Origin: Nesterenkonia xinjiangensis
GTDB taxonomy: Bacteria > Actinomycetota > Actinomycetes > Actinomycetales > Micrococcaceae
NCBI RefSeq assembly: GCF_013410745.1
Contig: NZ_JACCFY010000001.1
Span: 1,116,001-1,180,000 of the forward strand
DNA: 64,000 bases
Direction of reading: 5' to 3'
Below are positions 14,554 to 35,667 of this stretch, piece after piece; the first letter of the stretch is position 1, and every line of letters starts with the position of its first letter. A program made the position numbers and the translations under genes. The notes below the pieces were generated by a model. It saw only the letters and a list, made by a program, of their open reading frames with translations. It was not told the origin of the DNA and searched no databases.

Positions 14554-14635
14554 TTATCCATATATCGGATGACATTTTCCGCATCACGATAGACTGGTGC
14601 GGTCCCTGACCCCTTCACGAGGAGACCTCATCACC

Positions 14636-16553: not shown

Positions 16554-16576
16554 GTCTGTGTCTTTCCTCTCTGGCT

Positions 16577-17809: not shown

Positions 17810-17813
17810 CGAG

Positions 17814-19595: not shown

Positions 19596-19668
19596 GGCGC
19601 TTCTCCTTCATCTCGTCGTGTCTGGTGAGGCGGTCCGAACTCCGGGCCGCCGAATCTGGGCGGCGGCG

Positions 19669-20568
19669 TCACCGGGCTGAGGGGTCCGACGATCCGCCGG
19701 AGAGCTCCTCCAGGACGGTGAGCAGCCCGGAGTGGTCCAGCCCGCCGTCGCCCCGCTGCACGGTGGAGGCGATCAGCTGCGCCACGGTGGAGGCCAGCGG
19801 CGTCACGACGCCGGCCTCGCGGGCGGCCGCGGTGACGATCCCCATGTCCTTGTGATGCAGGTTCAGCCGGAAGCCGGGTTCGAAGGCGCGGTCCAGCATC
19901 TTCTGGCCCTTCTGGTCCAGGACCTTGGAGCCGGCCAGCCCGCCGCCGAGCACTGTCAGCGCGGAGTCGGTGTCCACGCCGTAGGCCTCGAGGAACAGGA
20001 CGGCCTCGGCGAGCAGCCCGATGTTGCCGGCGACGATGAGCTGGTTGGCCGCCTTGACGGTCTGCCCGGAGCCGGAGGGGCCCACCAGCACGATGGTCTT
20101 CCCGACCCCCTCGAGGACGTCACGGACGGCGTCGAACTCCTCCTGCTCCCCGCCGACCATGATGGAGAGCACACCGTCTATCGCGCCCTGCTCCCCGCCG
20201 GAGACCGGGGCGTCCAGCGGCTTGAGCCCTGCCTCGCGGGCCTTCTGCGCGACCTCGGCGGCCACGTCGGGGCGGATGGTGGAGTGGTCGATCCAGGTGG
20301 CCCCGGGCTGGGCGTGGGCGAGGACGCCGTCCTCCCCCAGCATCACCGACTCCACGTCCGGGGAGTCCGGCACCATGGTGATGATGACCTCGGCGTCACG
20401 GACCGCCTCAGCCACAGACGACGCCGCGGTCCCGCCGGCCTGCGCGAGCTCCTGGCTCTTCTCGGGCGAACGGTTGAAGCCGGCCACGGTGTGTCCGGCG
20501 GCGACGAGGTTCTTGGCCATGGGCAGTCCCATGATTCCCAGGCCGATGAATGCGATCTTCGTGCTCAT
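19669..20568 (-). CDS. glxR: Tartronate-semialdehyde reductase (2-hydroxy-3-oxopropionate reductase)
   Basis: A 299-residue beta-hydroxyacid dehydrogenase reducing tartronate semialdehyde to D-glycerate. The Rossmann motif FIGLGIMGLPMAKNL is at the N-terminus, the substrate loop DAPVSGGEQGA near 120 and the catalytic Lys172 in GQTVKAANQL. ATG 20568 starts the homology and has AGAGGAC upstream. It lies between hyi and gcl, which supply its substrate. Confidence 0.95.
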   Translation of the reverse strand: MSTKIAFIGLGIMGLPMAKNLVAAGHTVAGFNRSPEKSQELAQAGGTAASSVAEAVRDAEVIITMVPDSPDVESVMLGEDGVLAHAQPGATWIDHSTIRPDVAAEVAQKAREAGLKPLDAPVSGGEQGAIDGVLSIMVGGEQEEFDAVRDVLEGVGKTIVLVGPSGSGQTVKAANQLIVAGNIGLLAEAVLFLEAYGVDTDSALTVLGGGLAGSKVLDQKGQKMLDRAFEPGFRLNLHHKDMGIVTAAAREAGVVTPLASTVAQLIASTVQRGDGGLDHSGLLTVLEELSGGSSDPSAR

Positions 20569-20641
20569 GTCCTCTGGTCCTCTCGTGTGGGGCGGTCGCC
20601 TCAGACCGATCCCGGTGTCTGTGTGCTGCGTGGGCAGCTGG

Positions 20642-21484
20642 TCAGCGGCTCGCGTCCGCAGCAGGGGCGGTGGCCGCGAGCCAGTCGAAGGCGGTCGCGG
20701 TGTCCTGCTTGTACTCCAGGGCCACCGAGCCGGGATAGCCGAGCTCACGGCTGCGGTCGATCCACGCCTGCAGGGGGAGCGCACCGGTGCCGGGGGCTCC
20801 GCGGCCGGGTGCGTCGGCGATCTGGATGTGGCCGAAGGACGCGGCGTGGGCCTCGATGACGGCGGCGACGTCGTCGCCGTTGACCGCCAGGTGGTAGAAG
20901 TCGGCCAGCAGAGCGACGTTCTGTGCACCGGCGGCGCGGGCCGCCTCGACCACGGCGAGCGCCTCGACGGCCGTCTTCAGCGGGTACCCCTCGGCGCCGG
21001 AGACCGGCTCCACGAGCACCACGCCCTCGATGACGGCGACGGCCTCGGCGGCGTGGACCAGGTTCTTCACGGCGAGCGCGTCCTGGGCCTGCTCGTCCTG
21101 CCCGTCCTGCCGCAGTCCGTAGAGGGCGTTGAAGGCTCGGCAGCCGGTGCGGCGGCCGATCTCGACGACGACCTCGACGTTGCGCTCGAACTCGTCCTGG
21201 CGGCCGAGGACGGAGACCATCCCGCGATCGCCCTGAGCCATGTCGCCGGCCCAGAAGTTCAGCCCGGCCAGGGAGACCCCGGCCTCGTCCAACGAGGCCA
21301 CGAACGCATCGACCTCGGCCCCGGAAGGCGCGGGGTCACCGTCGAAGGGCCACCAGAACTCCACCGCGGTGAAGCCTCGGTCAGCTGCGGCGCGGGCCCT
21401 CTCCAGCACGGGCAGCTCGGTGAGCAGCGTGGAGCAGTTCAGCACGTAGGACTGCGGGGAACGGTGATCGGATGTGCCAGTCAT
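20642..21484 (-). CDS. hyi: Hydroxypyruvate isomerase
   Basis: A 280-residue TIM-barrel enzyme interconverting hydroxypyruvate and tartronate semialdehyde. It starts with YVLNCSTLLTELP and contains the family segments FTAVEFWWPF, LNFWAGDMAQGDRGM, VEPVS, ADFYHLAVNGDD and HIQIADAPGRGAPGTG, with metal/catalytic Glu residues in VEPVS and LEYK. It is the first gene of the hyi-glxR-gcl-kinase-allB operon and is divergent from the NCS2 permease. Confidence 0.93.
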   Translation of the reverse strand: MTGTSDHRSPQSYVLNCSTLLTELPVLERARAAADRGFTAVEFWWPFDGDPAPSGAEVDAFVASLDEAGVSLAGLNFWAGDMAQGDRGMVSVLGRQDEFERNVEVVVEIGRRTGCRAFNALYGLRQDGQDEQAQDALAVKNLVHAAEAVAVIEGVVLVEPVSGAEGYPLKTAVEALAVVEAARAAGAQNVALLADFYHLAVNGDDVAAVIEAHAASFGHIQIADAPGRGAPGTGALPLQAWIDRSRELGYPGSVALEYKQDTATAFDWLAATAPAADASR

Positions 21485-21542: not shown

Positions 21543-21612
21543 TTCCGTAAAGCGGAAACATGAATCCATCTTGTGGAAGATCAGCGTACGACGCCGCGGA
21601 AGGTCTCGTCAA
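21543..21612 (-). promoter_or_regulatory. hyi operon promoter with paired IclR-type operators
   Basis: On the minus strand -35 TTGACG (21607-21612) and -10 TACGCT (21583-21588) are 18 bp apart. Two palindromes follow: ATCCATCTTGTGGAA (21564-21578) at the expected start site and TTCCGTAAAGCGGAA (21543-21557), with starts 21 bp apart. Both fit WTCCR-N5-YGGAW without mismatch. Repressor binding would block initiation. Confidence 0.78.
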
Positions 21613-21701
21613 CGCCCAGGCCCACCGAGATCCTGCATGCACCCCAGAATCCCGGGTGCCCGAAGCCGACACGACGACGCATGGACTGCCGGAGGGCGAG
21701 C

Positions 21702-21787
21702 TTGACGGAACGTCTGTGATCGGGGTTACACTCATTCACGATGCGGAATATCGATGCCATATCCCGAAATAGTTCCGCATTGCGAAA
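21702..21787 (+). promoter_or_regulatory. NCS2 permease promoter with IclR-type operators
   Basis: -35 TTGACG (21702-21707) and -10 TACACT (21727-21732) are 19 bp apart, slightly long. Operator-like 15-mers lie at 21734-21748 (ATTCACGATGCGGAA, one mismatch), 21755-21769 (two mismatches, 21 bp on) and 21773-21787 (TTCCGCATTGCGAAA, one mismatch). They cover the expected start site. The whole 21485-21895 gap is this divergent control region. Confidence 0.68.
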
Positions 21788-21895
21788 AGCCACGCAGGAC
21801 GCCGGGCGCAGCGGAGGACTGCCCCGCCATGACCTGGGTGCGGCCGCCACGGGCCGCACCCCGCCCCAGAGAGGCAGAATGAGGTGAGCTCCACC

Positions 21896-23590
21896 ATGAA
21901 GAAGGCCACTGGTGACAGCGTGAAGAAACGCCGATCCATCCCCGCCGGCTCAGACCGGCCAGAAGACGAATGGCTCCCGATCAGCAAGCTGCTGACCTTC
22001 GGCCTGCAGCATGTGCTGACGATGTACGGCGGCATCATCGCCGTCCCCCTGATCATCGGCAGCGCGGCCGGGCTCCCCGCCGAGCAGACGGCGCTGCTGG
22101 TCACCGCCAGCCTCTTCATCGGCGGTCTGGCGACCGTCCTGCAGAGCGTCGGGCTCCCGATGCTCGGCTCGAAGCTGCCGATCGTGCAGGGCGTGTCCTT
22201 CGCCGCCGTCGGCACTATGCTGGCGATCCTCACCGGCCCCGGAGGCGACCTGAACACCGTCTTCGGCGCGATCATCGCCGCCAGCGTGATCGGCTTCATC
22301 ATCGCGCCGTTCTTCGCCCGCATCATCCGGTTCTTCCCACCTGTGGTCACCGGCGTGGTCATCACCGCCATCGGGCTCACCCTCATCCCCGTGGCCGCCA
22401 ACTGGTCGATGGGAGGCGACGCCGAGACCGACGACTACGGCTCACTCGCCAACATCGGCCTGGCCTTCCTCACCCTGGCCATCATCCTGCTCTTCTCCAA
22501 GGTCGGCTCCGCCACGCTGTCCCGCCTCTCGATCCTGCTGGGACTTGTCGTGGGCACCGCAGTGGCGGCCGCGCTGGGAATGGCCGACTTCTCCGACGTC
22601 GGCGGCGGCAGCGCCTGGGTGGCCGCGCCCTCGTTCCTGGGCTTCGGAGTCCCGACCTTCGACCTGGCCGCGATCATCTCCATGACGATCGTGATCCTGG
22701 TGATCAAGACCGAGACGGCCGCTGACATCATCGCCATCGGCGAGATCATCGACACACCGGTGGACCGTCGCCGCATCGCCAACGGCCTGCGTGCCGACAT
22801 GCTCTCCTCCGCCGTCGCCCCGCTGTTCGGCTCCTTCACCCAGTCCGCCTTCGCACAGAACGTCGGTCTGGTGGCGCTGACCGGCGTGAAGAGCCGGTTC
22901 GTGGTGGCCGGCGGCGGCATCATCATGGTCGCCCTGGGCCTGCTGCCGATCCTCGGGCAGGTGATCGCCGCCATCCCCATGCCGGTCCTCGGCGGAGCCG
23001 GCATCGTCCTCTTCGGCACGGTGGCGGGCTCCGGGATCCGCAACCTGAAGAGCGTGTCCTACGAAGGGAACATGAATCTGATCATCGTCTCGGCCTCCCT
23101 GGCCTTCGCGATGATCCCTGTGGTGCGCGAGGACTTCTACCACGCCTTCCCCTCCTGGTTCCAGACCATCTTCCACTCGGGCATCTCCTCCGCCGCGATC
23201 ATGGCTGTGCTCCTGAACCTGCTGTTCAACGAGCTGAAGCTGGGCAACTCGGAGAACCCCTCCGTCTTCGCGGCGAAGCCGATCCGCATCCTGTCCCCCA
23301 CCGACCTGCGGGACCTCCGAGAGGGCGACGTGTACATCGACGGCCGATTCGTGGACTGCGACGGGGAGGAGATCCCCCTCGTGCCCGAGGACAAGGTCGA
23401 GGAGGTCCGAGACGCCATCGACCGAGGCGAGGTCACCGACACCAGTCAGGTGCAGATGATCATCGCCGGCCAGGATCCCCGCCAGGCGGCCGACCCCCGT
23501 GAACGGGAGCCCGACGCCGATGCGGAGCCCGGCAGTCCCGCGGAGCCCCAGGCACCGGCCGGCGTCCACAACGGGCAGCCACCGCGCTGA
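21896..23590 (+). CDS. NCS2 family purine (xanthine/urate) permease
   Basis: A 564-residue transporter with about 14 membrane helices. It carries the NCS2 N-terminal FGLQHVLTMYGG motif, the substrate-site segments KTETAADIIAIGEI and SAFAQNVGLVALTGVKSR, and a long acidic C-terminal tail. The QNVGLVALTGVKSR form belongs to the xanthine/urate branch rather than uracil. ATG 21896 is supported by GAGGTGAG 7 nt upstream; a GTG 12 nt earlier overlaps that site. It imports the purine for the catabolic operon divergently encoded next to it. Confidence 0.93.
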   Translation: MKKATGDSVKKRRSIPAGSDRPEDEWLPISKLLTFGLQHVLTMYGGIIAVPLIIGSAAGLPAEQTALLVTASLFIGGLATVLQSVGLPMLGSKLPIVQGVSFAAVGTMLAILTGPGGDLNTVFGAIIAASVIGFIIAPFFARIIRFFPPVVTGVVITAIGLTLIPVAANWSMGGDAETDDYGSLANIGLAFLTLAIILLFSKVGSATLSRLSILLGLVVGTAVAAALGMADFSDVGGGSAWVAAPSFLGFGVPTFDLAAIISMTIVILVIKTETAADIIAIGEIIDTPVDRRRIANGLRADMLSSAVAPLFGSFTQSAFAQNVGLVALTGVKSRFVVAGGGIIMVALGLLPILGQVIAAIPMPVLGGAGIVLFGTVAGSGIRNLKSVSYEGNMNLIIVSASLAFAMIPVVREDFYHAFPSWFQTIFHSGISSAAIMAVLLNLLFNELKLGNSENPSVFAAKPIRILSPTDLRDLREGDVYIDGRFVDCDGEEIPLVPEDKVEEVRDAIDRGEVTDTSQVQMIIAGQDPRQAADPREREPDADAEPGSPAEPQAPAGVHNGQPPR

Positions 23591-23617
23591 CCGCCGTGCC
23601 CCGTCGGCACAGTGACA

Positions 23618-23663
23618 GAGAGGACCCCTGGACGCTTCTGCGGAGGCGTCCAGGGGCCCTCTC
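23618..23663 (+). terminator. Hairpin terminator after the permease
   Basis: An 11-bp stem CCCCTGGACGC/GCGTCCAGGGG with a 10-nt loop is extended by GAGAGG/CCTCTC after one mismatch. It begins 27 bp after the permease stop. Confidence 0.75.
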
Positions 23664-23846
23664 TCCTGCTGGAGCGCAGCCGACGTCCTGGACGCACCCC
23701 GCGACCCATCCCCACGCGCGGCCGAAACTCCCCGTGGGAATGCGTTCCCCCACCCCTGGGGAGCGGAAGAATCGGCCGAACGTCGCACCCAGCACGCTGC
23801 GACGGGCACGTGGGGCCGGGGCAGCGAGGTCGCACCTGACACGTCG

Positions 23847-23899
23847 CGCACACGACGACGCCGCCACAGTCCGGGACTGTGGCGGCGTCGTCGTGTGCG
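23847..23899. terminator. 26-bp perfect hairpin, bidirectional terminator
   Basis: 26-bp arms with a single central G lie between the convergent permease and allE genes. The rest of the 23591-23950 gap holds only the permease terminator; I see nothing else in it. Confidence 0.8.
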
Positions 23900-23950
23900 G
23901 TCGGCCCCGCCGATCAGCAGGATCGTCACCGGGGCCTCATCCGGGTCGGC

Positions 23951-24772
23951 TCAGAGCACGACCTGACGGTTGACGTCCTTGTAGAGCAGGTAGCGGAACG
24001 GGCCGGGCCCGCCCGCGTAGCAGGCCTGCGGGCAGAAGGCCCGCAGCGAGAGATAGTCGCCCTCCTGGACCTCGACCCAGTCGGTGTTCAGCCGATACAC
24101 GGCCTTGCCTTCGAGCACGTAGAGCCCGTGCTCCATCTCGTGGGTCTCGGCGAAGGGGATCGAGGCGCCCGGCTCGAAGGTCACGATGTTGACATGCATG
24201 TCATAGGCCAGGTCCTGCGGGTCGAGGATGCGCGTGGTGCGCCACCGCCCGTCGGTGTCCGGCATCGGGCTCGGCTCGATCTCCTGCTCCTGGCCCACCA
24301 CGGGCCGGGGGGTGTGCCCGGCGAGCGCCTGGTGGCGTTTGCGGATCCAGTGCAGCCGGGCGGCCTCCTCCCCGACGGAGCGGAGCGACCACTGCTCCCC
24401 CGCCGGGACGAAGCCGTATCCTCCCGGAGTCAGTCGGTGAGCCTCTCCGGCGATCACCAGCTCCACCTCTCCCTCCATGAGGAAGAGGAATCCTTCGACC
24501 TCGGGCTGCGGCTCGGGGGCATCGGATCCGCCGCCGGGGGCGACCTCCAGGATGGTCTGGGAGAAGGTCACCGCCCCGCCGGCCACCGGACGGTGCAGCA
24601 CCCACGAGCGGGTGTCCCGCCACTCAGGGAGCACTGTGGTGACGATGTCGCGCAGGACTCCCCGCGGGATCACCGTATAGGCCTCGGTGACCATCGCGCG
24701 GTCGGTGAGGAGATCGGTCTGCGGCGGGTGGCCGCCGTGCGGCGCGTAGTAGGGGGTCCTGCTGGTCGTCAT
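23951..24772 (-). CDS. allE: (S)-ureidoglycine aminohydrolase
   Basis: A 273-residue bicupin releasing ammonia from (S)-ureidoglycine to give ureidoglycolate. N-terminal YYAPHGGHPPQTDLLTDRA and the first cupin (EGFLFLMEGEVELVIAG) are typical. The second cupin holds the likely Mn ligands in PFAETHEMEHGLYVLEG and Gln in AFCPQACYAGG. It is the third gene after the malic enzyme and the DUF6986 aldolase, 90 bp beyond the latter, and should share their operator-controlled promoter. Confidence 0.95.
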   Translation of the reverse strand: MTTSRTPYYAPHGGHPPQTDLLTDRAMVTEAYTVIPRGVLRDIVTTVLPEWRDTRSWVLHRPVAGGAVTFSQTILEVAPGGGSDAPEPQPEVEGFLFLMEGEVELVIAGEAHRLTPGGYGFVPAGEQWSLRSVGEEAARLHWIRKRHQALAGHTPRPVVGQEQEIEPSPMPDTDGRWRTTRILDPQDLAYDMHVNIVTFEPGASIPFAETHEMEHGLYVLEGKAVYRLNTDWVEVQEGDYLSLRAFCPQACYAGGPGPFRYLLYKDVNRQVVL

Positions 24773-24862
24773 CGTTCAGCTCCTCTGTGGTCTTCTCGAC
24801 GTGTCTTCATCATGCACCGGCCGCGGGCCGCTCGGCCCTTCTGGTGGGCCGACCGGCTCGCC

Positions 24863-26155
24863 TCACGCAGGTCGCCCGGTGCGGGCGAGGCTCGCCAGGC
24901 CCACGGCGTCGAGGCCGGTGGCCGCGACGACGTCGTCCGGCGTGACGGCCCCGCAGGTCAGCCCGCGCTGCAGATACCCTGCCAGCGCCTTCGCCGTCGC
25001 CGGCTCATCCAGCACGGCACCGGACTCCCCGGCCACATAGTCGCGGATGCGTCGGGCCGCGGCCTCGAATCCCTCCCGATAGAACAGGAAGGTCGCCAGA
25101 AAGCGCGTGGGCAGCTGGTGGGGGTGAAGGTCCCAGCCCTGATATATCCCGCGCTGCAGGTGCCGCCGTACGAGCCGACTGTGCAGGTCCCAGGCCGCGA
25201 ACACGCTCTCGGCCTCGCCCACGGGGAGGATGTTGGTGGACCCGTCCGAGACATGGACTCCGGTCTCGGCGGCGGCCAACAGCATCTGCTGCTTGGCGAA
25301 GTCCGCGACCGGATGGTCCATGGACTGGTGCGCCGCGGCGATGCCCAACGAGGCGGAGTAGTCATAGGTCCCGTAGTGCAGGGAGGTCACCCTCCCCTCA
25401 CCGGCGTGCACGGCCGCGGCCAGCGGGACGGTGCCGTCGGCGCCGAGGATCAGCTGCGGAGTCTCCACCTGGACCTCGAAGCCGATCCGGCCCGGCGGCA
25501 GTCCCAGGCCCTCCTCGAGGGCACCGGCCGCCAGCACCATGGCCCGCACCTGGTCCGCCGAGGTCACCTTCGGCAGGGTCAGCACCAGTCCCTCGGGAAG
25601 GCCGCCGGCGGCGTGCAGCTCGGTCAGGAACAGGTCCAGGGTGCGCAGCCCTCGACGGCGGGAGTCCGCCTCCAGGCATCGGAACCGGATGCCGATCCAG
25701 GCCGGTGCGACCCCGTCGGTCAGCGCCCGGGCCACCTGATGCGCGGACTGCACTGCCCAGGCGTCCTCCTCGGCGTCGTCGCGGAGGCCGAATCCGTCCT
25801 CGAAGTCGAGCCGGAGGTCCTCGATCGGCTCGTGCCGCAGCTTGGCAGTGACCACCCCGGCGAGGCCGGCGACGTCGCCGGCCAGCCCGATCCCGACCGT
25901 CCCGCCCGCCTGCTGGATGACCCGCTGGGCCAGCTGCTCCATGCCGCCGTGGGCCTCGACGGCGTCCAGGGCCTGGGAGCCCCAGTCTGCTGAAAGCGCG
26001 GGGGTCCACGCATCGGCCGGGACGTAGACGGTGTGCACGGGCTGTCGCACACCGCGGTCACCGGGATAGAGCCGCTCGAGAGCCTGGTCCGCGTCCTGCA
26101 GGAGCTCGTCGACGGCGCGGTGGAGCTCGGCGCCGAACACGGGGTGTCGGCTCAT
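24863..26155 (-). CDS. DUF6986 protein, HpcH/HpaI aldolase/citrate lyase-like
   Basis: A 430-residue TIM-barrel protein of the CitE/HpcH superfamily. Visible segments: LRLDFEDGFG (metal-ligand Asp/Glu), GIRFRCLEADSRRRGLRTLD, LTLPKV, FEVQVETPQ, and LHYGTYDYSASLGI, matching the strands that bind metal and acyl-CoA in CitE-like enzymes. The family recurs in actinobacterial ureide clusters but its reaction is not known to me. It overlaps the malic-enzyme stop by ATGA and precedes allE, so it is in one operon with both. A glyoxylate- or malate-handling role is inference. Confidence 0.8.
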   Translation of the reverse strand: MSRHPVFGAELHRAVDELLQDADQALERLYPGDRGVRQPVHTVYVPADAWTPALSADWGSQALDAVEAHGGMEQLAQRVIQQAGGTVGIGLAGDVAGLAGVVTAKLRHEPIEDLRLDFEDGFGLRDDAEEDAWAVQSAHQVARALTDGVAPAWIGIRFRCLEADSRRRGLRTLDLFLTELHAAGGLPEGLVLTLPKVTSADQVRAMVLAAGALEEGLGLPPGRIGFEVQVETPQLILGADGTVPLAAAVHAGEGRVTSLHYGTYDYSASLGIAAAHQSMDHPVADFAKQQMLLAAAETGVHVSDGSTNILPVGEAESVFAAWDLHSRLVRRHLQRGIYQGWDLHPHQLPTRFLATFLFYREGFEAAARRIRDYVAGESGAVLDEPATAKALAGYLQRGLTCGAVTPDDVVAATGLDAVGLASLARTGRPA

Positions 26156-27591
26156 CGGTGCGCCTCCGCTCCGACGAGCGCCTCAGCAGCCCCGTTCCGG
26201 CTCGCGGTCTGCGCAGCGGCGGTCGCGGCGACCGCCTCGGCGACGTTGCTCGCCACTCGGGGGTCGAAGACCGAGGGGATGATGTAGCCCGGATTGAGCT
26301 CGTCGTCGCCGAGGGTCCCAGCGATCGCCTCCGCGGCGGCACGCAGCATCTCGTCGGTGATGTCGTGGCACTGTGCGTCGAGCAGGCCGCGGAAGAAACC
26401 GGGGAAGGCCAGCACGTTGTTGATCTGGTTGGGGTAGTCGCTGCGTCCTGTCGCGATGACCGCAGCGGTCCGGCCGGCGGCCACCGGGTCGACCTCGGGG
26501 TCAGGGTTGGACATGGCGAACACGATCGACTCGTCGGCCATGGCCGCGACGTCGTTCCCGTCGAGCAGGTTCGGCGCGGAGACCCCGATGAAGACGTCGG
26601 CGTCGACCACGGCCTCCTTCAGCGTCCCGCTGACCCCGCGCGGGTTGGTGTGCTCGGCGAGCCAGGCACGGTGCGGGTCGGAGTGGGTGCCGGCAGGGCT
26701 GAGCACCCCGTCGCGGCCGCAGACGACGACGTCGTGCGCTCCGGCAGCGAGCAGCAGCTTCACGATGGCGTGGCCGGCGGCACCGGCGCCGGAGACCACG
26801 ATCCGCACCTCCCCCATGTCCTTGTCCACGACCTTCAGGGCGTTGGTCAGCGCCGCCAGAGTGACGATGGCGGTGCCGTGCTGGTCATCGTGGAAGACGG
26901 GGATGTCCAGCTCCTCGCGCAGGCGGGCTTCGATCTCGAAGCAGCGCGGAGCGGAGATGTCTTCCAGGTTGATCCCGCCGTAGGCCGGCGCGATGGCCTT
27001 GCAGACGGCGATGATCTCCTCGGTGTCCTGGGTGTCGAGCGCGACGGGCCAGGCGTCGACGCCGGCGAACTGCTTGAACAGCACGGCCTTGCCCTCCATG
27101 ACGGGCATCGCGGCCTCAGGACCGATGTTGCCCAGGCCCAGGACTGCGGAGCCGTCGGTGACGACCGCGACGGTGTTGCGCTTGATGGTGAGCCGCCGGG
27201 CGTCCTCGGGGTTCTCGGCGATGGCCTGGCAGACGCGAGCCACTCCGGGGGTGTAGGCACGGGAGAGGTCGTCGCGGTTCTTCAACGTCACCTTGGAGAC
27301 GGATTCGAGCTTGCCTCCCAGGTGCAGCAGGAAGGTGCGGTCCGAGCTCTTCTGCATCTCCACTCCCTCGAGTGCGGCCAGCGCGCCGCCGATCTCTTCA
27401 GCGTGGTCGACCCCCCGGGTGTCGCAGGAGACGTCGACGACGAGCCCTCCGCGGGTCGATTCGATGACGTCCAGAGCCGTCAGGGCAGCGCCCCACTCAG
27501 CGACGACGGCGGCGAGATCGGTGGACGCGGTGAAGCTGGCGGGCGTGGAGACGCGGTACGTGATGGAGTACCCGGGGCTGGGGGTTGCCAT
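26152..27591 (-). CDS. NAD-dependent malic enzyme (malate oxidoreductase, decarboxylating)
   Basis: A 479-residue enzyme converting malate to pyruvate and CO2. An ACT-like domain (about residues 1-80) precedes the catalytic core: [47 protein letters not shown] region, [16 protein letters not shown], the Rossmann loop [11 protein letters not shown] and [13 protein letters not shown] 27591 begins the homology; an AAAGG site is present but weak. It heads the malic-aldolase-allE operon and is divergent from iclR. Its job here is probably to turn malate from malate synthase into pyruvate. Confidence 0.93.
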
Positions 27592-27612
27592 GGCTCTGCC
27601 TTTCGGTCGATA

Positions 27613-27648
27613 TTCCGCAATGCGGACTACTTTGTCTACTATACGAAA
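27613..27648 (-). promoter_or_regulatory. Malic enzyme promoter with IclR-type operators
   Basis: TTCCGCAATGCGGAC (27613-27627) fits the operator consensus with one end mismatch. A weaker 15-mer (27634-27648, three mismatches) starts 21 bp away and overlaps the minus-strand -10 TATAGT (27638-27643). On the plus strand TACTAT (27637-27642) could serve iclR, giving shared control. Confidence 0.66.
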
Positions 27649-27778
27649 CTTTGGGCGTCGCGTCGACAGCCTCCCTCTCCCTGTGCCCTCCCGTGCCTGA
27701 TCAGGCTTGGAGCCGACTACACTCAAGGGCGAGAGGGTCGCAGGCTGATGCTGCGGCCGGAGGAGGACTGACCGCGAC

Positions 27779-28603
27779 ATGGAAGGCCCCGAGACCATGA
27801 CCACCGATCCCGCGGAGGCTCCGGACGCCGTCGAGAAGGACAGCACCGCACGCCGGCCCACCAAGGGTGGCGTCCAGTCCGTGGAGCGCACCTTCGACCT
27901 CCTCTCGGTCATCGCGGCCTCCGGAGGGCAGACGACGCTCAGCGAGCTGGCCGTCGCCGTCAACCTGCCGATGCCGACGATCCACCGCCTGCTCAAGACG
28001 CTGCTCGGCCTCGGCATCGTCCGCCAGCTCCCCGATCGAGGGTACGCCCTCGGCCCGGGGCTGATCCGCCTGGGCGACCTGGCGAGCCGCCAGCTGGGCG
28101 CGGTGGCACGCCCCCATCTGCGCACACTCGTGGACGAGCTCGGCGAGAGCGCCAACGTCGCCACCCTCGACGGCGACATGGTCGTCTACGTGGACCAGGT
28201 CCCCTCCCCACACCAGATGCGCATGTTCACTGAGGTCGGACGCCGCGCCCACACCCATGACACCGGCGTGGGCAAGGCCATCCTGGCCACCCTTGAGGCC
28301 GACCAGGTGCGCCGGATCGTGACGACGGCAGGGATGCCCGCCCACACCGAGCACAGCATCACCACCCCCGAGGCGCTCGAGGACGAGCTGCACACCATCC
28401 GGACTCAGGGCTATTCCGTGGACGAGCAGGAGCAGGAGCTCGGCGTCCGCTGCTTCGCCGTGTCCGTGCCGGAGGCGCCCGCACCGCTGGCCATCTCCGT
28501 CTCTGGCCCCACAAGCCGAGTGGACACGGCCTTCGCCGATCGCGCAGTACCCCTGCTGCGCCAGGTCGCCGCACGGATCTCCCGGGAACTGCGCAGCTCC
28601 TAG
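27779..28603 (+). CDS. IclR-family regulator, probable AllR-like repressor of purine/glyoxylate genes
   Basis: A 274-residue regulator: winged HTH at about residues 31-95 (VQSVERTFDLLSVIAASGG...LAVAVNLPMPTIHRLLKTL) and an IclR effector domain at about 110-270 (TGVGKAILATL, GYSVDEQEQELGVRCFAVSV). GGAGGAGG lies about 12 nt before ATG 27779; a second ATG is 6 codons on. Related AllR proteins repress allantoin genes and respond to allantoate or glyoxylate; its location among the operator-bearing promoters makes it the best candidate for binding WTCCR-N5-YGGAW boxes. Confidence 0.9.
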   Translation: MEGPETMTTDPAEAPDAVEKDSTARRPTKGGVQSVERTFDLLSVIAASGGQTTLSELAVAVNLPMPTIHRLLKTLLGLGIVRQLPDRGYALGPGLIRLGDLASRQLGAVARPHLRTLVDELGESANVATLDGDMVVYVDQVPSPHQMRMFTEVGRRAHTHDTGVGKAILATLEADQVRRIVTTAGMPAHTEHSITTPEALEDELHTIRTQGYSVDEQEQELGVRCFAVSVPEAPAPLAISVSGPTSRVDTAFADRAVPLLRQVAARISRELRSS

Positions 28604-28672
28604 CGGGTGACGACGGCCGGCCGCACACCCGCACAGAGCCGCGGCGAGGCGATGCCCCTGGTTCACCGACCC

Positions 28673-28739
28673 TTGACTCGACCCACCTCACTGGCGATAC
28701 TGATATCACTCCGTGGAAGCATTTTTCCGTATTGTGGAC
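28673..28739 (+). promoter_or_regulatory. Strong promoter with paired IclR-type operators, before the small ORF
   Basis: -35 TTGACT (28673-28678) and -10 GATACT (28696-28701) are 17 bp apart, one of the best sigma-70 matches in the window. Operators TATCACTCCGTGGAA (28704-28718, two mismatches) and TTCCGTATTGTGGAC (28725-28739, one) start 21 bp apart at and after the expected start site near 28708. Confidence 0.75.
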
Positions 28740-28775
28740 TTCCTGGGGGATCACTCAGAGCCGAAGGAGCGTGTC

Positions 28776-28967
28776 ATGGGTGCTCACCGACCGACCGACG
28801 ACGCACGGCCCCTCCCTCTCCCCTCACCGGCCGCCGAGGACGACGCCGCGTGGGACTTCGAGGGCGGGGACGACCCGGACTTCTTCATCCCGCCTCGACC
28901 TCTCGCGGAGACGCCCCTGATCTGCAGGATCCCGGGGCTCGGCAGCAGACTGCCGCAGTGCCGCTGA
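28776..28967 (+). CDS. Unrecognised 63-residue protein in the IclR-type regulon
   Basis: I do not recognise this protein. It starts at ATG with AAGGAG 6 nt upstream, is acidic in the middle (WDFEGGDDPDFF), Pro-rich, and ends with a Cys-containing basic segment (PLICRIPGLGSRLPQCR). No signal peptide or membrane helix is visible. It is preceded by a strong promoter with paired operators and followed by a 12-bp hairpin at 28982-29030, so it looks like a complete, regulated single-gene unit. It could also be a leader for a regulatory RNA. Confidence 0.6.
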   Translation: MGAHRPTDDARPLPLPSPAAEDDAAWDFEGGDDPDFFIPPRPLAETPLICRIPGLGSRLPQCR

Positions 28968-28981
28968 CTCTGGTTCAGGGA

Positions 28982-29030
28982 CACAGAGAAGGGGCCGCCA
29001 TCCCGTCAGGACGGCGGCCCCTTCGCTGTG
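28982..29030. terminator. Hairpin between the small ORF and aceE
   Basis: A 12-bp stem GAAGGGGCCGCC/GGCGGCCCCTTC (28988-28999, 29013-29024) is extended by CACAG/CTGTG after one mismatch. It lies 14 bp after the small ORF and 57 bp beyond the aceE stop, so it can end both. Confidence 0.8.
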
Positions 29031-29087
29031 AGGCAGCGGCAGAAGCTCACCGGAGCGGCTGCCGCTGTTCAGTGGTGGTGGTGTGGT

Positions 29088-31880
29088 TCAGGCGTCTCCA
29101 CCAGTGCTTCCAGTACTGCCCGCATTGACATCAGCAAGGCGATACTTGCGGATCGCGTCCTCAGGGACCCCGGCATCGATCTGGCCCTGCTGGACCAGCA
29201 TCTGCAGCCCACGAATCACCATGGAATGAGCATCAATCCGGAAATGCCTGCGCGCGGCAGCCCGGGTATCAGAGATCCCGAAATCATCAGCACCTAGCGT
29301 GGCGAAGTCATGAGGCAGGAACTGCCGGATCTGGTCCGGGACCTGAGTAGAGAAATCAGTAGTCGCGATGATCGGACCCCGCGCCCCAGCCAGCTGCCGG
29401 GCCACAAAGGGCTCCCCAGGCTCACGATCGGGATCCAGCATCGCTGATTCCTGGACCCGCAGAGCCTCACGACGCAGCTCATTCCAAGAGGTCACCGACC
29501 ACACATCAGCCCCGACACCCCAATCAGTGGCCAAGAGCCGCTGAGCCTCCAACGCCCACGGCACCGCCACCCCCGAGGCCAGCAGCTGAACCACCGGACC
29601 CTGATCAGCCGGACCCTCCGGGTCTTGGTTGTTGAGGTGTTCTCCCAGCCCGGCCGATTCCGCAGTGGCCAATCGATAGATGCCCCCGATGACACCTTCA
29701 ACATCGAGGTCCTCAGGTTCGGGCAGATGAGTGACCGGCTCGTTATAGACCGTGAGGTAATACATCAGGTCATGATCACCGTCATGATCGCCATACATCT
29801 CGAAGAGTCCATGTTCGATGATATGAGCGATCTCGTAGCCAAAGGCTGGATCATAATGCTTCACCGCGGGATTGGTCCCGGCCAGGATCGGGGAATGCCC
29901 ATCCAGATGCTGCAGCCCTTCCCCTGCCAGAGTGGTCCGACCCGCGGTCGCACCGATGATGAATCCTCTGGTCAACTGATCCGCTGCCGCCCAGAACGAG
30001 TCCCCAGTGCGCTGGAAGCCGAACATCGAATAGAACACATAGACCGGGATCATCGGCTCCCCATGAGTGGCATAAGAAGTCCCTGCCGCAGTGAACGCCG
30101 CAGTAGCACCGGCCTCATTGATCCCGGGATGAAGCATCTGACCCTGGGCAGACTCCTTATAGGCCAGCATCAGCTCACGATCCACTGCCAGATAGTTCTG
30201 CCCCTTGGGGTTATAGATCTTCGCGGTGGGGAAGAAGGAATCCATCCCGAAGGTCCTGGACTCATCGGGCACGATCGGCACGATCCGAGCCCCGATGTTC
30301 TTATCACGCATCAGATCCTTGAGCAGCCGCACAAAAGCCATCGTGGTCGCAGCCTGCTGCTTGCCCGAGCCCTTCTTAGCCTGGGCATATGCCTTCTCCC
30401 CGGGCAGCTCCAGAGTGTTCTTAGCCACCCTGCGTGCCGGCAGAGGCCCACCCAGAGCAGCCCGACGAGCCCGCAGATAGGTGATCTCCTCAGAGTCCTC
30501 ACCAGGATGGTAATAGGGCACCTGATAGGGATCAGCCTCGATCTGTTCATCACTGATCGGGATCCGCAGGGTATCGCGGAAACGCTTGAGGTCCTCGATG
30601 GTCAGCTTCTTCATCTGATGGGTGGCATTACGACCCTCGAAGCTAGGACCCAGCCCATAGCCCTTGACCGTCTGGGCCAGGATCACCGTGGGCTTACCGC
30701 TGGTCTGCACTGCGGCCTGATAGGCCGAGTAGACCTTCTGATAATCATGACCACCACGCTTGAGTCCCCAGATGTCATCATCGGAGAGATCAGCGACCAT
30801 CTCTTTGGTCTTGGCCGAACGCCCGAAGAAATGCTCCCGCACGAAGGACCCAGACTCGGCCTTATAGGTCTGATAGTCCCCATCCAGGGTCTCGTTCATG
30901 ATCCGGACCAGCTCGCCATCCTCATCAGCGGCCAGCAGATCATCCCATTCCCGACCCCAGAGGACCTTGATCACGTTCCAGCCCGCACCCCGGAAGAAGG
31001 CCTCCAGCTCCTGGACGATCTTGCCATTGCCACGCACCGGACCATCGAGGCGCTGCAGATTGCAGTTGATCACGAAATGCAGGTTATCCAGCTTCTCATT
31101 GGCCGCGTGCTGCAACAGCCCCCGGGACTCGGGCTCGTCCATCTCGCCATCACCGAGGAAGGCCCACACGTTCTGATCACTGGTGTCTTTGATGCCTCGA
31201 TGTTCCAGATACCGGTTGAACTGGGCCTGATAGATCGCGTTCATCGGTCCGATGCCCATCGAGACCGTGGGGAACTGCCAGAAATCAGGCATCAGCCGTG
31301 GATGCGGATACGAGCTCAGCCCCTCTGGGGCCTTAGAGATCTCTTGACGGAATCCATCCAGCTGCGCCTGACTCAGCCGACCCTCCAGATAGGCCCGGGC
31401 ATAGTTGCCCGGCGAGGAATGGCCCTGGAAGAAGACCTGGTCCCCACCCCCGGGATGATCCGCGCCCCGGAAGAAATGATTGAACCCGACTTCATAGAGC
31501 GTCGCTGCTCCGGCATAGGAGGAGATATGCCCACCCACTGCTACACCATCACGCTGAGCACGATGGACCATCACCGCAGCATTCCAGCGCAGAATCCGGC
31601 GGAACCTGCGCTCGATGGCTTCATCACCAGGAAACTCTGGCTCCTGATCCACCGGGATCGTGTTCACATAATCAGTAGTGGTCACCATCGGGACCTCGAT
31701 GGACTTCGCCCCTGCCCGCTGCAGCAGAGTCCGGATGATGTATTCCGCTCGCTCGGTGCCATGAGCCTGGACCAACTGATCAAAAGACTCCAACCATTCC
31801 TGAGTCTCTTCAGGATCACGATCCGGAAGCTGATTGGTCAGACCACTGCGAATATGCGAGATCTCTTCACCAGCGCTCAC
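29088..31880 (-). CDS. aceE: Pyruvate dehydrogenase E1 component, homodimeric type
   Basis: A 930-residue ThDP enzyme decarboxylating pyruvate for acetyl-CoA formation. It has the alpha-like half with [20 protein letters not shown] and the ThDP/Mg motif [12 protein letters not shown], a transketolase-like middle ([24 protein letters not shown]) and a C-terminal domain. GTG 31880 is chosen since GAGAGAGG lies 5 nt upstream. No E2 or E3 adjoins it. GC content is visibly lower than in its neighbours (three 60-nt stretches counted: 50, 55, 65%) with many GAT and TAT codons, suggesting a different history or distinct codon selection. No IclR-type box was found upstream. Confidence 0.96.
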
Positions 31881-31973
31881 AAGCACCTCTCTCAAAAATC
31901 GAAGGACAACGCCGACACGCTGGAGCCGCAGCGATCAGCTCGGTGCGAGGCCAGTCGCCGGCGTCGCACATGG

Positions 31974-32016
31974 TGACGGCCCGGAAGGCGCCCACCCAGC
32001 ACCCTCCGGGCCGTCA
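31974..32016 (-). terminator. Hairpin terminator after uricase
   Basis: TGACGGCCCGGA/TCCGGGCCGTCA form a 12-bp stem with a 19-nt loop, 42 bp past the uricase stop codon and before aceE on the same strand. Confidence 0.72.
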
Positions 32017-32057
32017 TCCCGGCGGAGGCAGCACGGTCTCGCCCGCCCCCGTCAGGT

Positions 32058-32945
32058 TCAGCAGTATCCCGCGATGCCCGCCCAGGCGGACGGCGAGTCC
32101 GCCACGTCGTCGCGGGCCACAGTGGCTTCGATGAGGCCATAGGGGCGGTCGGCGGCGTAGAACACCTCGTTCGGGTTCTCCAGGCCGAACCGCTCGAGGT
32201 CATAGGCGAAGTGGTGCTTGTTCGGACAGGAGAACCGGATCTCCGCGATCTCCGGCACCTCCGCGAGGACCCGCTCCCCCATCTGGTACAGCGTGTGCTG
32301 CAACGCGTAGGAGTAGTGGTCGGTGAAGGTCGAGAGGATGATCTTCTTGACCTTCACGTACGTCGCCTCGAAGTCGACGCCGGTGGTGGTGGAGTATCGC
32401 CACCGCGTGGCGATGTCGGTGGCCAGGATCCGATCCTCCGTCTCAGGGAGGGTCGTGTACTGGTCCTTGGGATAGCCCACGAAACCGGACTCGGTGGTCT
32501 TCAGGACGGTGAGTCCGTGGAAGCCCGAGAGCAGGTGGTCCTGATCTCCCTCACGCTGGAGGACCGCAGTGCGCACCTCAGGCGCCGAACGGTAGAAGGA
32601 GTGGTCGTGGTCCTCGATCCTGGACCAGCCGTACTCCTCGGCCGCCCAGCGCCCCCCGGTGACCCAGTCGAACTCGGAGGTGAAGTGGTCGGCCAGAGCG
32701 AGCAGGAACTGCTCCGGCGATCTGATGCCCACCTCCTTGGCCTTGGCGAAGATGGTGTTCTTCTGGGTGTCGGTCGCCACCACATGCCCGTTGTCTCCTC
32801 GGGTGTGGGCAGCGTCGAAGTCTCCCCGCAGCTGTGAGGTGACGTTGAGGTCCCTCAGCTCGTGACGGGCCGTGTCCCGATAGACACGCACTACGCGGTT
32901 CTCCGCCTTGCCGTACTGGTTGGACGAGAGCCTCACTGCACTCAT
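32058..32945 (-). CDS. Uricase (urate oxidase)
   Basis: A 295-residue cofactor-free enzyme oxidising urate to 5-hydroxyisourate. Both T-fold repeats are present; the catalytic residues appear as Lys in NQYGKAENRV, Thr in VVATDTQKNTIFAKA and His in SCPNKHHFAYD. The length matches bacterial uricases (PucL oxidase domain). It is the last gene of the OHCU decarboxylase-HIU hydrolase-uricase operon, 94 bp after the hydrolase, and ends in an AGYC C-terminus with no peroxisomal signal. Confidence 0.97.
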   Translation of the reverse strand: MSAVRLSSNQYGKAENRVVRVYRDTARHELRDLNVTSQLRGDFDAAHTRGDNGHVVATDTQKNTIFAKAKEVGIRSPEQFLLALADHFTSEFDWVTGGRWAAEEYGWSRIEDHDHSFYRSAPEVRTAVLQREGDQDHLLSGFHGLTVLKTTESGFVGYPKDQYTTLPETEDRILATDIATRWRYSTTTGVDFEATYVKVKKIILSTFTDHYSYALQHTLYQMGERVLAEVPEIAEIRFSCPNKHHFAYDLERFGLENPNEVFYAADRPYGLIEATVARDDVADSPSAWAGIAGYC

Positions 32946-33039
32946 GGTCGCCTCCTTGTGATCGAGATGCCTGTTCGGCAGCCGCCGGTTCCCGCAGGTC
33001 GCCGCCGACTGGCGACACCCGGCGTCCCCGACTCCTGGG

Positions 33040-33366
33040 TCAGCTGCCGCGGTAGGTGGAATAGGCGAACGGGCTCAGCAGCAGCGGGATGTGATAGTGC
33101 TTCTCCCCCGCCTGGACGGTGAAGTCCACCGTCACGACGGGATGGAAGCTCTGCTGCCCCCGTGCTGTGAAATAGTCTCCCGTTCCGAAGGTGACCCGGT
33201 AGGCACCGGGCTCCAGGGTCTCTGGTCCGAGGTCCCCGACGCGGCCGTCATCATCGGTGATCCCGGTGGCCAGCTGCTCGCCGTCGGGGGTCAGCAGCTG
33301 GATCTCCACGCCGCGGGCGGGGACGCCCGCAGTGGCGTCCAGGACGTGGGCGGTGATATAGCTCAT
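33040..33366 (-). CDS. 5-Hydroxyisourate hydrolase
   Basis: A 108-residue transthyretin-related protein hydrolysing 5-hydroxyisourate to OHCU. The family markers are the N-terminal HVLDATAGVPA (catalytic His7), FHPVVTVDF, HYHIPLLLSPFAYSTYRGS and the C-terminal YRGS tetrapeptide. ATG 33366 overlaps the OHCU decarboxylase stop (ATGA), so the two are coupled. Confidence 0.97.
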   Translation of the reverse strand: MSYITAHVLDATAGVPARGVEIQLLTPDGEQLATGITDDDGRVGDLGPETLEPGAYRVTFGTGDYFTARGQQSFHPVVTVDFTVQAGEKHYHIPLLLSPFAYSTYRGS

Positions 33367-33863
33367 CGGAGGAGTCCTTCCAGTCTCAGGGCGGCGATCT
33401 GTTCGAGCTGCTCTCCGGCGATCTCGAGTTCCTCGGCGGAGTCGAGCTGGAGTCGGCGTTCCAGCTCGGCGAGGATCTCTTCGTGGCTGCGCCCCGCGGC
33501 GCGGATGAGGAAGACGCGGCCGAAGCGCTGCTCGTAGGCGAGGTTGCCGGCGGCGAGACGCTGCTCGACACTGGCGTCAGCCTCACCCAGTCCGGCCTGC
33601 TCACGGCGGGAGAACTCCGCTTCTGCGGATTCGGCCTGGGTGCGTTCGCCGATGCGGGGGTGATCGGCCAAGGCCTGATCGATCTCGCCGGGCGTGAGAG
33701 GGTGCGCAGCGTGGTGCGCCGCCTCCACGGCAGCGTCCACGGAGGGGAAGGGCCTAGCCTCGAGCAGGCGCTCGATCCATCGTGCGACGTTGAGGCATGA
33801 ACGCAGCTGCGCCCTGGCCTGCTCATCGGGCGCCGAGTTGAATTCCGCCAGGGCCACGCTCAT
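33363..33863 (-). CDS. OHCU decarboxylase
   Basis: About 166 residues from ATG 33863 (in-frame ATGs at 33872 and 33881 would add 3 or 6). The enzyme decarboxylates 2-oxo-4-hydroxy-4-carboxy-5-ureidoimidazoline to (S)-allantoin. Family marks: LNVARWIERLLEARPF, the ADHPRIGE loop with the catalytic His, and FGRVFLIRAAGRSHEEILAELERRL. The second operator (33874-33888) covers the earliest ATG, which favours the later start, though GGAGG then lies only 2 nt before it. First gene of the urate operon. Confidence 0.92.
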   Translation of the reverse strand: MSVALAEFNSAPDEQARAQLRSCLNVARWIERLLEARPFPSVDAAVEAAHHAAHPLTPGEIDQALADHPRIGERTQAESAEAEFSRREQAGLGEADASVEQRLAAGNLAYEQRFGRVFLIRAAGRSHEEILAELERRLQLDSAEELEIAGEQLEQIAALRLEGLLR

Positions 33864-33873
33864 CGCCTCCATA

Positions 33874-33938
33874 TTCCACATCGTGGATAGACTATTCCGT
33901 CTAGTGCAAGTGTGGCCTGCGCCTCAGGAGAATGTCAA
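33874..33938 (-). promoter_or_regulatory. Urate operon promoter with paired IclR-type operators
   Basis: On the minus strand -35 TTGACA (33933-33938) and a weak -10 CACACT (33909-33914) are 18 bp apart. TTCCGTCTAGTGCAA (33895-33909, one mismatch) abuts the -10 and TTCCACATCGTGGAT (33874-33888, none) follows, starts 21 bp apart. Confidence 0.7.
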
Positions 33939-33972
33939 GTGGCGAAGAGAGCGCCCCTTGCCTCCCCCGTGA

Positions 33973-34011
33973 GTCCACAATCTGGACAGTAGTTTTCGTT
34001 ACGTGGATACT
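33973..34011 (+). promoter_or_regulatory. Malate synthase promoter with paired IclR-type operators
   Basis: -35 TGGACA (33983-33988) and -10 GATACT (34006-34011) are 17 bp apart. GTCCACAATCTGGAC (33973-33987; perfect 5-bp arms) overlaps the -35 and TTTCGTTACGTGGAT (33994-34008, one mismatch) overlaps the -10; starts are 21 bp apart. Confidence 0.7.
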
Positions 34012-34062: not shown

Positions 34063-35667
34063 ATGACGATCACCATCACAGAGCCGTACATGGTTGACGG
34101 AGCCACGGAGATCCTCTCCGACGAGGCGCTTGCCTTCGTCGAGGAGCTCCATCGCCGCTTCGTCGGCACCCGGGATGGGCTGCTGGAGGCTCGCCGCACT
34201 GCCCAGCGGGATGCCGCGGCATCCGGGCGGCTCGACTTCCTGCCCGACACTCAGGAGATCCGCGACGGCGACTGGACCGTCGCCGAGCACCCCGACTCCC
34301 TGCAGGATCGCCGCGTGGAGATCACCGGCCCTCCGGCACCGGCCAAGATGGCCATCAACGCCCTCAACTCCGGCGCGAAGGTCTGGCTCGCCTGCCTGGA
34401 GGACGCTCTGTCCCCCACCTGGTTCAACCTGGTGGACGCCCAGAAGAACCTCTACGAGGCGGCGCGCGGCACCCTGCGGTTCACCTCCCCCGAAGGCAAG
34501 GAGTACACCCTCCGCGACGACGTGACCCTGCCCACCGTCGTCGTGCGGCCCCGAGGCTGGCATCTGCCTGAGAAGCACCTCCAGATCGACGGCTCCCCTG
34601 CCGTGGGGGCGCTGGTGGACTTCGGACTGCACTTCTTCCACAACGCGAAGCTGCTCCACGATCAGGGTGCCGGACCCTACTACTACCTGCCGAAGATCGA
34701 GCACCACCAGGAGGCCAAGCTCTGGGACGACGTGTTCAGCTTCGCCGAGGAGCGCCTGGCCCTGCCGCACGGCAGTGTGAGGGCGACCGTGCTGATCGAG
34801 ACCATCCCGGCGGGGTTCCAGATGGACGAGATCCTCTACGCACTCCGTGATCACGCATCGGGCCTCAACGCCGGCCGCTGGGACTACCTGTTCTCCCTCA
34901 TCAAGTACTTCCGCGCCTCCGGTCATGAGTTCGTACTGCCGGACCGCGCCGAGGTGGGGATGACCCAGCCGTTCATGCGCGCCTACACCGAGCTGCTGGT
35001 CAAGACCTGCCACCGCCGGGGCGCCTTCGCCATGGGTGGCATGGCGGCGTTCATCCCGAACCGCCGCGAGCCCGACGTCACGCAGAAGGCCATCGGCAAG
35101 GTCCGTGACGACAAGTCCCGCGAGGCCGGCGATGGCTTCGACGGCTCCTGGGTGGCGCATCCCGACCTGGTGGAGATCTGCCGGGAGGAGTTCGACAAGG
35201 TCCTCGGCGACAGGCCCAACCAGGTGGACCGCCAGCGCGACGACGTCCAGGTGAGCCCCGAGGATCTGCTCGCGGTGGAGAAGGCCGAAGGCGATGTCAC
35301 TGAGGCTGGCGTGCGCATGAACCTCTATGTGGCGGTCTACTACACGGCGATCTGGCTCTCCGGCAACGGGGCGGTGGCGATCCACAACCTCATGGAGGAC
35401 GCCGCCACCGCGGAGATCTCCCGATCGCAGGTGTGGCAGCAGATCCGCAACAGCACCGTCACCGCAGACACCGGGGTCACCGTGACCGCAGAGCTGGTGG
35501 AGCGGCTGCTCGGCGAGGAGGTGGAACGGCTGCGCGGAGAGATCGGTGATGCCGACACCTTCGCCAAGTACTTCGAGCCCGCCGCCGGCGTCGTGCGTGA
35601 GCTGGTGCTCGACGCCGACCACTATGAGGACTTCCTCACGACGCCGGCCTACGAACTGCTGGACTGA
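34063..35667 (+). CDS. aceB: Malate synthase A
   Basis: A 534-residue enzyme condensing glyoxylate with acetyl-CoA to malate. The type-A signature RPRGWHLPEKHLQIDG carries the catalytic Arg; KIEHHQEAKLWDD, IETIPAGFQMDEILYALRDH (metal Glu) and HNLMEDAATAEISRSQ (catalytic Asp) follow in order. AGAGGAG precedes ATG 34063. It is divergent from the urate operon with separate operator pairs, and here assimilates glyoxylate from ureides; no isocitrate lyase is in the window. Confidence 0.96.
   Translation: MTITITEPYMVDGATEILSDEALAFVEELHRRFVGTRDGLLEARRTAQRDAAASGRLDFLPDTQEIRDGDWTVAEHPDSLQDRRVEITGPPAPAKMAINALNSGAKVWLACLEDALSPTWFNLVDAQKNLYEAARGTLRFTSPEGKEYTLRDDVTLPTVVVRPRGWHLPEKHLQIDGSPAVGALVDFGLHFFHNAKLLHDQGAGPYYYLPKIEHHQEAKLWDDVFSFAEERLALPHGSVRATVLIETIPAGFQMDEILYALRDHASGLNAGRWDYLFSLIKYFRASGHEFVLPDRAEVGMTQPFMRAYTELLVKTCHRRGAFAMGGMAAFIPNRREPDVTQKAIGKVRDDKSREAGDGFDGSWVAHPDLVEICREEFDKVLGDRPNQVDRQRDDVQVSPEDLLAVEKAEGDVTEAGVRMNLYVAVYYTAIWLSGNGAVAIHNLMEDAATAEISRSQVWQQIRNSTVTADTGVTVTAELVERLLGEEVERLRGEIGDADTFAKYFEPAAGVVRELVLDADHYEDFLTTPAYELLD

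Follow-up and report, generated by a model that had tools for sequence, protein, structure and literature searches.

The window analysed here, a stretch of 64,000 nucleotides, comprises bases 1116001-1180000 of the single-contig, 3.57-Mb genome of the actinobacterium Nesterenkonia xinjiangensis (NCBI RefSeq assembly GCF_013410745.1). Scans of its open reading frames (ORFs) with family profiles showed that genes for purine uptake and breakdown fill the region from 14.6 to 35.7 kb, which encodes a permease, urate oxidase, hydroxyisourate hydrolase, OHCU decarboxylase, an allantoinase-like amidohydrolase and ureidoglycine aminohydrolase, together with the glycerate branch of glyoxylate use, malate synthase, a malic enzyme-like protein and pyruvate dehydrogenase E1. 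The cluster also holds the gene for an IclR-family regulator (iclR) and seven tandem pairs of a 15-bp palindrome, and these pairs, their probable regulator and the genes that it would control are the subject of this report (Table 1).

Tandem operator pairs of the cluster

A sequence-only reading of the window had described 13 sites of the form WTCCR-N5-YGGAW, which make up six pairs with a start-to-start offset of 21 bp. All 13 sites are present where that reading placed them, and each of the six pairs has an offset of 21, but the consensus is matched exactly in only three sites (21543, 21564, 33874); the other ten deviate, six by one mismatch and four (21755, 27634, 28704, 33973) by two or more. 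In the window as a whole, six exact matches were found against 1.0 expected, and 31 against 20.4 when one mismatch was allowed. Because this exact form gave weaker statistics, the sites were rescored with a published IclR consensus, TTYCRYWWWRYGRAA, which comes from the WTTYCRYW3RYGRAAW subgroup described by Suvorova and Gelfand (2021; PMC8222616) and is independent of the window sites. Each of the 13 sites differs from this subgroup consensus at 0-3 of its 15 positions. At a threshold of five or fewer mismatches in total per pair, the window contains seven pairs at offset 21 and none or one at each other offset from 15 to 60, and resampling the window 150 times, in 1-kb blocks with local dinucleotide frequencies, never produced a pair at offset 21. 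The seventh pair (14556/14577), absent from the sequence-only reading, precedes the peroxiredoxin gene; the six units originally proposed were too few, and aceE is a further likely member. All seven pairs, with centres 21 nt apart, have the layout of IclR-type tandem operators, in which WTT-11-AAW palindromes are centred 18-22 nt from one another. The constant period had been offered as a sign against chance: offset 21 alone is indeed enriched, but two-turn tandem sites have been described in many IclR-family groups (PMC8222616), so that the paired spacing is ordinary for the family, its period is already published, and its constancy is in itself unsurprising.

Promoters were placed at the best -35/-10-like match of a simple score, and the hexamers are therefore predicted ones. 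Downstream of the -10-like hexamer, the pair starts after 4 bp at hyi, 1 bp at pbuX and 2 bp at the small ORF; at uraD pair and hexamer overlap by one base, and at the malic enzyme gene (malE) the pair covers the -10-like box. The claim that pairs lie on or just after the -10 box is roughly right; at aceB the pair extends from upstream of the predicted -35 into the -10 box, and the predicted promoter of the peroxiredoxin gene (prx) is ambiguous. A position after or over -10-like boxes fits repression.

Over the whole genome, two profiles of paired sites were searched: R1, built from the seven window pairs, and R2, built from both orientations of 24 pairs from other genera, which were hand-picked from pairs around iclR relatives and so were preselected by the published consensus and offset 21. 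R1 recovered all seven pairs, none of them above an expectation value (E) of 0.011, and otherwise matched a single place, at E 9.99; R2 gave 13 matches at E ≤ 10, all 13 of them within the cluster, covering all seven pairs and the third site at 21773. Pairs are thus not common elsewhere in the genome, a point on which the sequence-only reading had staked the regulon: the two profiles report nothing outside the cluster below E 9.9, in searches that score only first-look candidates and could miss very weak pairs elsewhere. Two simpler patterns were set aside. The strict pair pattern returned one pair only, since the sites are degenerate, and was replaced by the profiles; the single-site pattern returned 26 matches, most of them outside the cluster, so that single sites are uninformative.

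Table 1. Operator pairs and genes of the purine and glyoxylate cluster (window coordinates; R1 and R2 as defined in the text)
Feature	Coordinates	Strand	Basis or remark
Operator pair 1	14556..14591 (sites 14556, 14577)		Total of 5 mismatches; R1 and R2 whole-genome matches
Peroxiredoxin (thioredoxin-dependent thiol peroxidase type)	14636..15094	+	NF006960, 146.6 bits (cut-off 140); AhpC-TSA
hyi-glxR-gcl-glxK-allB operon (hydroxypyruvate isomerase-like, 2-hydroxy-3-oxopropionate reductase, glyoxylate carboligase, glycerate kinase, allantoinase-like amidohydrolase)	15204..21484	-	Family-profile matches
Operator pair 2, hyi operon	21543..21578		Consensus score, R1, R2
Operator pair 3, permease promoter	21734..21787 (sites 21734, 21755 and third site 21773)		Weakest pair under R2 (E 4.3)
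pbuX-type xanthine permease family	21896..23590	+	TIGR03173, 488 bits, above cut-off
Malic enzyme-like, DUF6986 (aldolase-like) and ureidoglycine aminohydrolase genes, single operon	23951..27591	-	Family profiles
Operator pair 4, between malic enzyme operon and iclR, over malic enzyme -10-like box	27613..27648		Consensus score, R1, R2
IclR-family regulator, proposed owner of the operator pairs	27779..28603	+	IclR_C and HTH_IclR
Operator pair 5, small ORF promoter	28704..28739		Consensus score, R1, R2
Small protein, 63 amino acids, DPDF-motif family	28776..28967	+	Comparison of relatives
aceE, pyruvate dehydrogenase E1, with a near-identical second copy in the genome; lies downstream of urate genes, same strand	29088..31895	-	
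uraD-hiuH-uox urate operon	32058..33872	-	uraD start candidates 33881, 33872, 33863
Operator pair 6, urate operon	33874..33909		Consensus score, R1, R2
Operator pair 7, malate synthase	33973..34008		Consensus score, R1; weak under R2 (E 1.2)
aceB, malate synthase A	34063..35667	+	TIGR01344, 705 bits, above cut-off

Among the assignments in Table 1, the hyi match (225 bits) lies under the curated cut-off of 353, and the sole basis for allB is the general Pfam amidohydrolase family. No separate gene for ureidoglycolate cleavage was recognised among the scanned window genes. The DUF6986 protein (24863-26155; HpcH/HpaI aldolase-like) adjoins the ureidoglycine aminohydrolase in the window and in many relatives, and a TetR-family gene (35683-36531) adjoins aceB in the window and in several congeners.

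Conservation of the pairs with iclR and uricase

One scan for relatives of the IclR protein yielded 53 loci, for which 1.03 Mb was examined; many of these loci are from one genus (Brevibacterium), so the counts are dependent. Strict pairs, with three or fewer mismatches in total, number 29 at offset 21, two at 20 and one at 43, with none at any other offset from 13 to 59, and at five or fewer mismatches there are 71 pairs at offset 21 and at most nine at any other. Counted by locus, 39 of the 53 carry a pair at offset 21. Pairs stand at the orthologous malE/iclR, hyi and uraD promoters in several genera (36 loci listed) and, in congeners at least, at those of pbuX, aceB, prx and the small ORF; pair 4 has its equivalent in Nesterenkonia, Brevibacterium, Prauserella and Arthrobacter rhombi loci, and prx is likewise preceded by a pair in two congeneric genomes, L092 and L085.

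The pairs also occur together with the genes that they are proposed to serve. In the genus (30 genomes, including that of the window), an IclR homologue at E ≤ 1e-30 was found in 27, of which 20 have an R1 pair at E ≤ 0.1, compared with none of the three that lack the homologue. In the family, an R2 pair at E ≤ 0.003 was found in 39 of 149 genomes, and uricase is present in all 39, as against 82 of the 149 overall (hypergeometric P 3e-13, kinship ignored); none of the 67 uricase-less genomes carries a pair, provided that both searches drew the same 149 genomes, as shared handles suggest. These genomes yielded 60 distinct pairs, of which 35 lie within 20 kb of uox. The pairs, their spacing, their confinement to the cluster, their conservation at orthologous promoters and their co-occurrence with iclR and uricase are thus matters of observation, and they give good support to the view that the sites define one purine and glyoxylate regulon.

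The small protein and the aceE copy

The small ORF downstream of pair 5 has a ribosome-binding site, and its product and three relatives from the genus have in common the sequence GGDDPDFF and, at the C-terminus, LPQCR. The profile built from these sequences, four in all, matched 38 of 395 family genomes at E ≤ 0.01, and a 15-member profile matched 19 of 396 order genomes, with two convincing matches from a second family. In 22 sequences the family is 53-69 amino acids long, with the DPDF motif following glycines and a C-terminal (L/I)P segment. A tandem pair lies within 300 bp upstream of the small ORF in 24 of 37 loci (20 from the four-member and 18 from the 15-member search, with the own copy L143 left out and the edge locus L158 skipped), and the best offset is 21 in all 24, although 19-22 was allowed; two of the 24 (L118 and L144) come from a single genome, and the window itself supplies another one. 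In the cluster-rich DNA searched, the background amounts to 0.023 pairs per 300 bp. The 13 loci without an upstream pair comprise six of a second branch (L111-L116, one genus), L147, which lies beside urate genes, and six weak and doubtful matches (L151, L152, L156, L159-L161), which have no purine neighbour in the fetched flanks. In the surroundings of five members of the second branch (L126-L130), the small ORF adjoins a malic enzyme gene, with no urate genes in the fetched stretch and no operator pair detected.

The ratio of nonsynonymous to synonymous substitution (omega) is 0.06-0.48 in 10 of 11 comparisons, those that were computable, with few codons and with sequences shared between comparisons. 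Judged from these ratios, the family is under purifying selection, and a non-coding ORF was rejected on the same grounds. Four members gave no match in Pfam or NCBIfam, and structure prediction of the window's small protein, from an input of four sequences only, gave no fold (mean predicted local distance difference test score 60.9; predicted template-modelling score 0.13); the family is probably disordered. No description of this regulon or of the small protein was met in the literature searched, a search that left most subscription papers outside. Possibly, though at somewhat less than even odds, the small ORF represents an undescribed family that belongs regularly to the urate regulon in Micrococcales and their close relatives and may act post-translationally on a pathway enzyme. 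Its target may, for example, be the malic enzyme or pyruvate dehydrogenase branch, whose genes its own genes often adjoin, and our guess is a short disordered adaptor acting on an enzyme.

The genome contains two aceE copies, that of the window and one at 3503973-3506681 of the contig (L101), which are 99.9% identical over 2847 bp and 100% identical in protein, with identity stopping within about 20 bp of the ORF ends; this suggests that a duplication took place recently or that the copies underwent gene conversion. The window itself has no pair immediately upstream of aceE, whose transcription would therefore have to start at the urate promoter. In other genera, all seven loci with a near-full-length aceE (L132, L134, L135, L137, L139, L140, L141; at least four from one genus) have a preceding consensus pair (five) or R2 match (two: L134 at E 0.0065 and L132 at E 0.083, the latter weak). 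These pairs weaken the notion that aceE is a mere neighbour, and the cluster copy probably belongs to the regulon.

The proposed regulator, rival readings and known systems

The protein encoded at 27779-28603 is of the IclR family (HTH_IclR 47.2 bits, cut-off 22; IclR_C 138.2 bits, cut-off 24), and its nearest named records are from Nesterenkonia, with a best segment identity of up to 90%. The closest curated models all score under their cut-offs: BhcR (NCBIfam NF045644) at 192.3 bits against 350, IclR at 163 bits, and AllR of the Escherichia coli type (NCBIfam PRK10163) at 105.7 bits against 406. Its pocket residues were read from an alignment with Table 1 of PMC11323563, and E. coli numbers were assigned by counting from the residues in that table. 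Four of the five residues that contact the glyoxylate oxygens in E. coli IclR are kept (G160, D212, S239, S241; A161 is replaced by Val), whereas three of the four residues of the pyruvate-methyl patch are changed (L143, L154 and L220 to Gln, Ala and Val; M146 is kept), as are all four in BhcR. Because the oxygen contacts are mostly kept and the methyl patch is mostly changed, glyoxylate appears from this alignment to be the best candidate effector.

The window-type IclR is 76-78% identical to that of Prauserella, which is closer than the 51-57% seen with several congeners and suggests transfer or replacement. In those congeners (L093-L098), DUF4032 adjoins the more distant IclR gene and aceB, and iclR and aceB mostly flank an operator pair; in the window (13228-36531), DUF4032 and aceB are separated by the entire purine cluster.

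The IclR protein very probably regulates urate and glyoxylate catabolism through the seven 21-bp tandem pairs, a reading in which binding, tetramer formation, repression and effector are all predicted from sequence. At each pair, where the palindrome centres lie two helical turns from one another, two dimers of the protein, together a tetramer, would occupy the same face of the DNA. Without substrate, the protein would most likely block transcription there, because the pairs lie over or just after promoters. Purine breakdown would generate glyoxylate, or an earlier intermediate such as allantoate, which would weaken binding and release all units together. Work on Streptomyces AllR reportedly makes allantoate a possible effector. 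The released genes would provide uptake (pbuX), conversion of urate to allantoin (uox, hiuH, uraD), steps from allantoin towards glyoxylate (allB, ureidoglycine aminohydrolase and perhaps the DUF6986 protein), conversion of glyoxylate to glycerate (gcl, hyi, glxR, glxK) and glyoxylate oxidation via malate, pyruvate and acetyl-CoA (aceB, malic enzyme, aceE). Oxidation of glyoxylate by malate synthase, malic enzyme and pyruvate dehydrogenase is said to constitute the dicarboxylic acid cycle of Kornberg and Sadler. The peroxidase could clear hydrogen peroxide made by uricase, and the small ORF product would be released with the other units.

Several observations weigh against this reading. Among the 53 iclR loci, two have a pair at offset 20 only (Actinocatenispora L049, L051) and 12 have none at offsets 18-23 with five or fewer mismatches (L011, which is cut short, L030, L032, L033, L035, L040, L041, L045 and L059-L062; five Arthrobacter, two Bordetella, L061 and L062, at 34% identity, Garicola and others). 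Seven of the 27 IclR-bearing congeners lack a pair at E ≤ 0.1, where about three false matches would be expected in 30 genomes; with strict filters, 43 of the 82 uricase genomes lack one at E ≤ 0.003; and 25 of the 60 family pairs lie farther than 20 kb from uox on the same contig (12) or on another contig (13). R1 was trained on the window pairs themselves, so that its search is partly circular, and two pairs are weak under R2 (33973 at E 1.2; 21734 at E 4.3). Garicola keeps iclR and malE, with by eye only one site between them; the regulon of Garicola koreensis has possibly decayed. Uricase was not found in the matching genome (G010, 79% complete) of this species (L084 7559-9900; L045).

The sign of control is less certain, since BhcR, the closest curated model, activates in vivo (PMC11323563). 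The IclR protein might therefore bind the pairs and activate, or have a dual role, with the genes needing it for induction: in vitro, glyoxylate weakens the binding of BhcR, yet induction of its operon fails in the mutant (PMC11323563). We consider this unlikely, as the pairs lie over or downstream of -10-like boxes, a position that fits repression, and the BhcR cut-off is missed. It is far less likely still that a second IclR-family protein or the TetR-family protein owns the pairs and that iclR is a mere neighbour. Ownership by the IclR protein is assigned from sequence, and the TetR gene does stand beside aceB here and in several congeners, but the motif fits the published IclR WTT-11-AAW subgroup consensus (PMC8222616), pairs lie beside iclR in Brevibacterium, Prauserella and Leucobacter loci with no TetR match or with one of 30% identity only (L037), and the three congeners without the window IclR have no pair. 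Chance matches in AT-richer promoter DNA, which a window of 67% GC with AT-richer sites might seem to favour, can practically be dismissed in view of the empty resampled windows, the enrichment at offset 21 alone both in the window and around iclR relatives, and the conservation of pairs across genera.

Control by the IclR protein through its tandem pairs, as preferred here, would amount to a nearly complete map, open to testing, of the regulon by which an actinobacterium uses urate and glyoxylate, and it makes the sharp prediction that glyoxylate releases a 21-bp tandem operator. It would also add to the regulon two members that gene-by-gene annotation easily misses, an unnamed small protein that is conserved and a dedicated copy of pyruvate dehydrogenase; the small protein is the part worth following up.

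AllR of the actinobacterium Streptomyces coelicolor, an IclR-family protein reportedly described by Navone et al. in 2015, is said to repress both allantoin genes and a gene for malate synthase. Compared with that regulon, the one proposed here extends to urate oxidation, uptake, peroxiredoxin, aceE and the small protein. In E. coli, AllR represses allantoin and glyoxylate genes, and glyoxylate lowers its DNA binding (PMC11323563); its operator, KTTGGAAWAWTWTTCCAAC (PMC8222616, Table 1), differs from that of the window, and the window protein scores 106 bits against the AllR cut-off of 406. Tandem sites with 18-22 nt, mainly 19-21, between centres were described in 94 orthologous groups by Suvorova and Gelfand (2021; PMC8222616), who proposed that IclR-family proteins bind them as tetramers facing one DNA side. 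The window operators share the palindrome subgroup WTTYCRYW3RYGRAAW and the tandem layout with those regulons, whereas the main-text parts of that article covered here make no mention of this lineage, gene set or small protein. BhcR of Paracoccus denitrificans responds to glyoxylate and regulates the beta-hydroxyaspartate cycle as an activator (PMC11323563); the window IclR differs from it in falling under the BhcR cut-off of 350 bits and resembles it in that BhcR is its best curated model (192 bits) and the pyruvate-methyl patch is changed in both.

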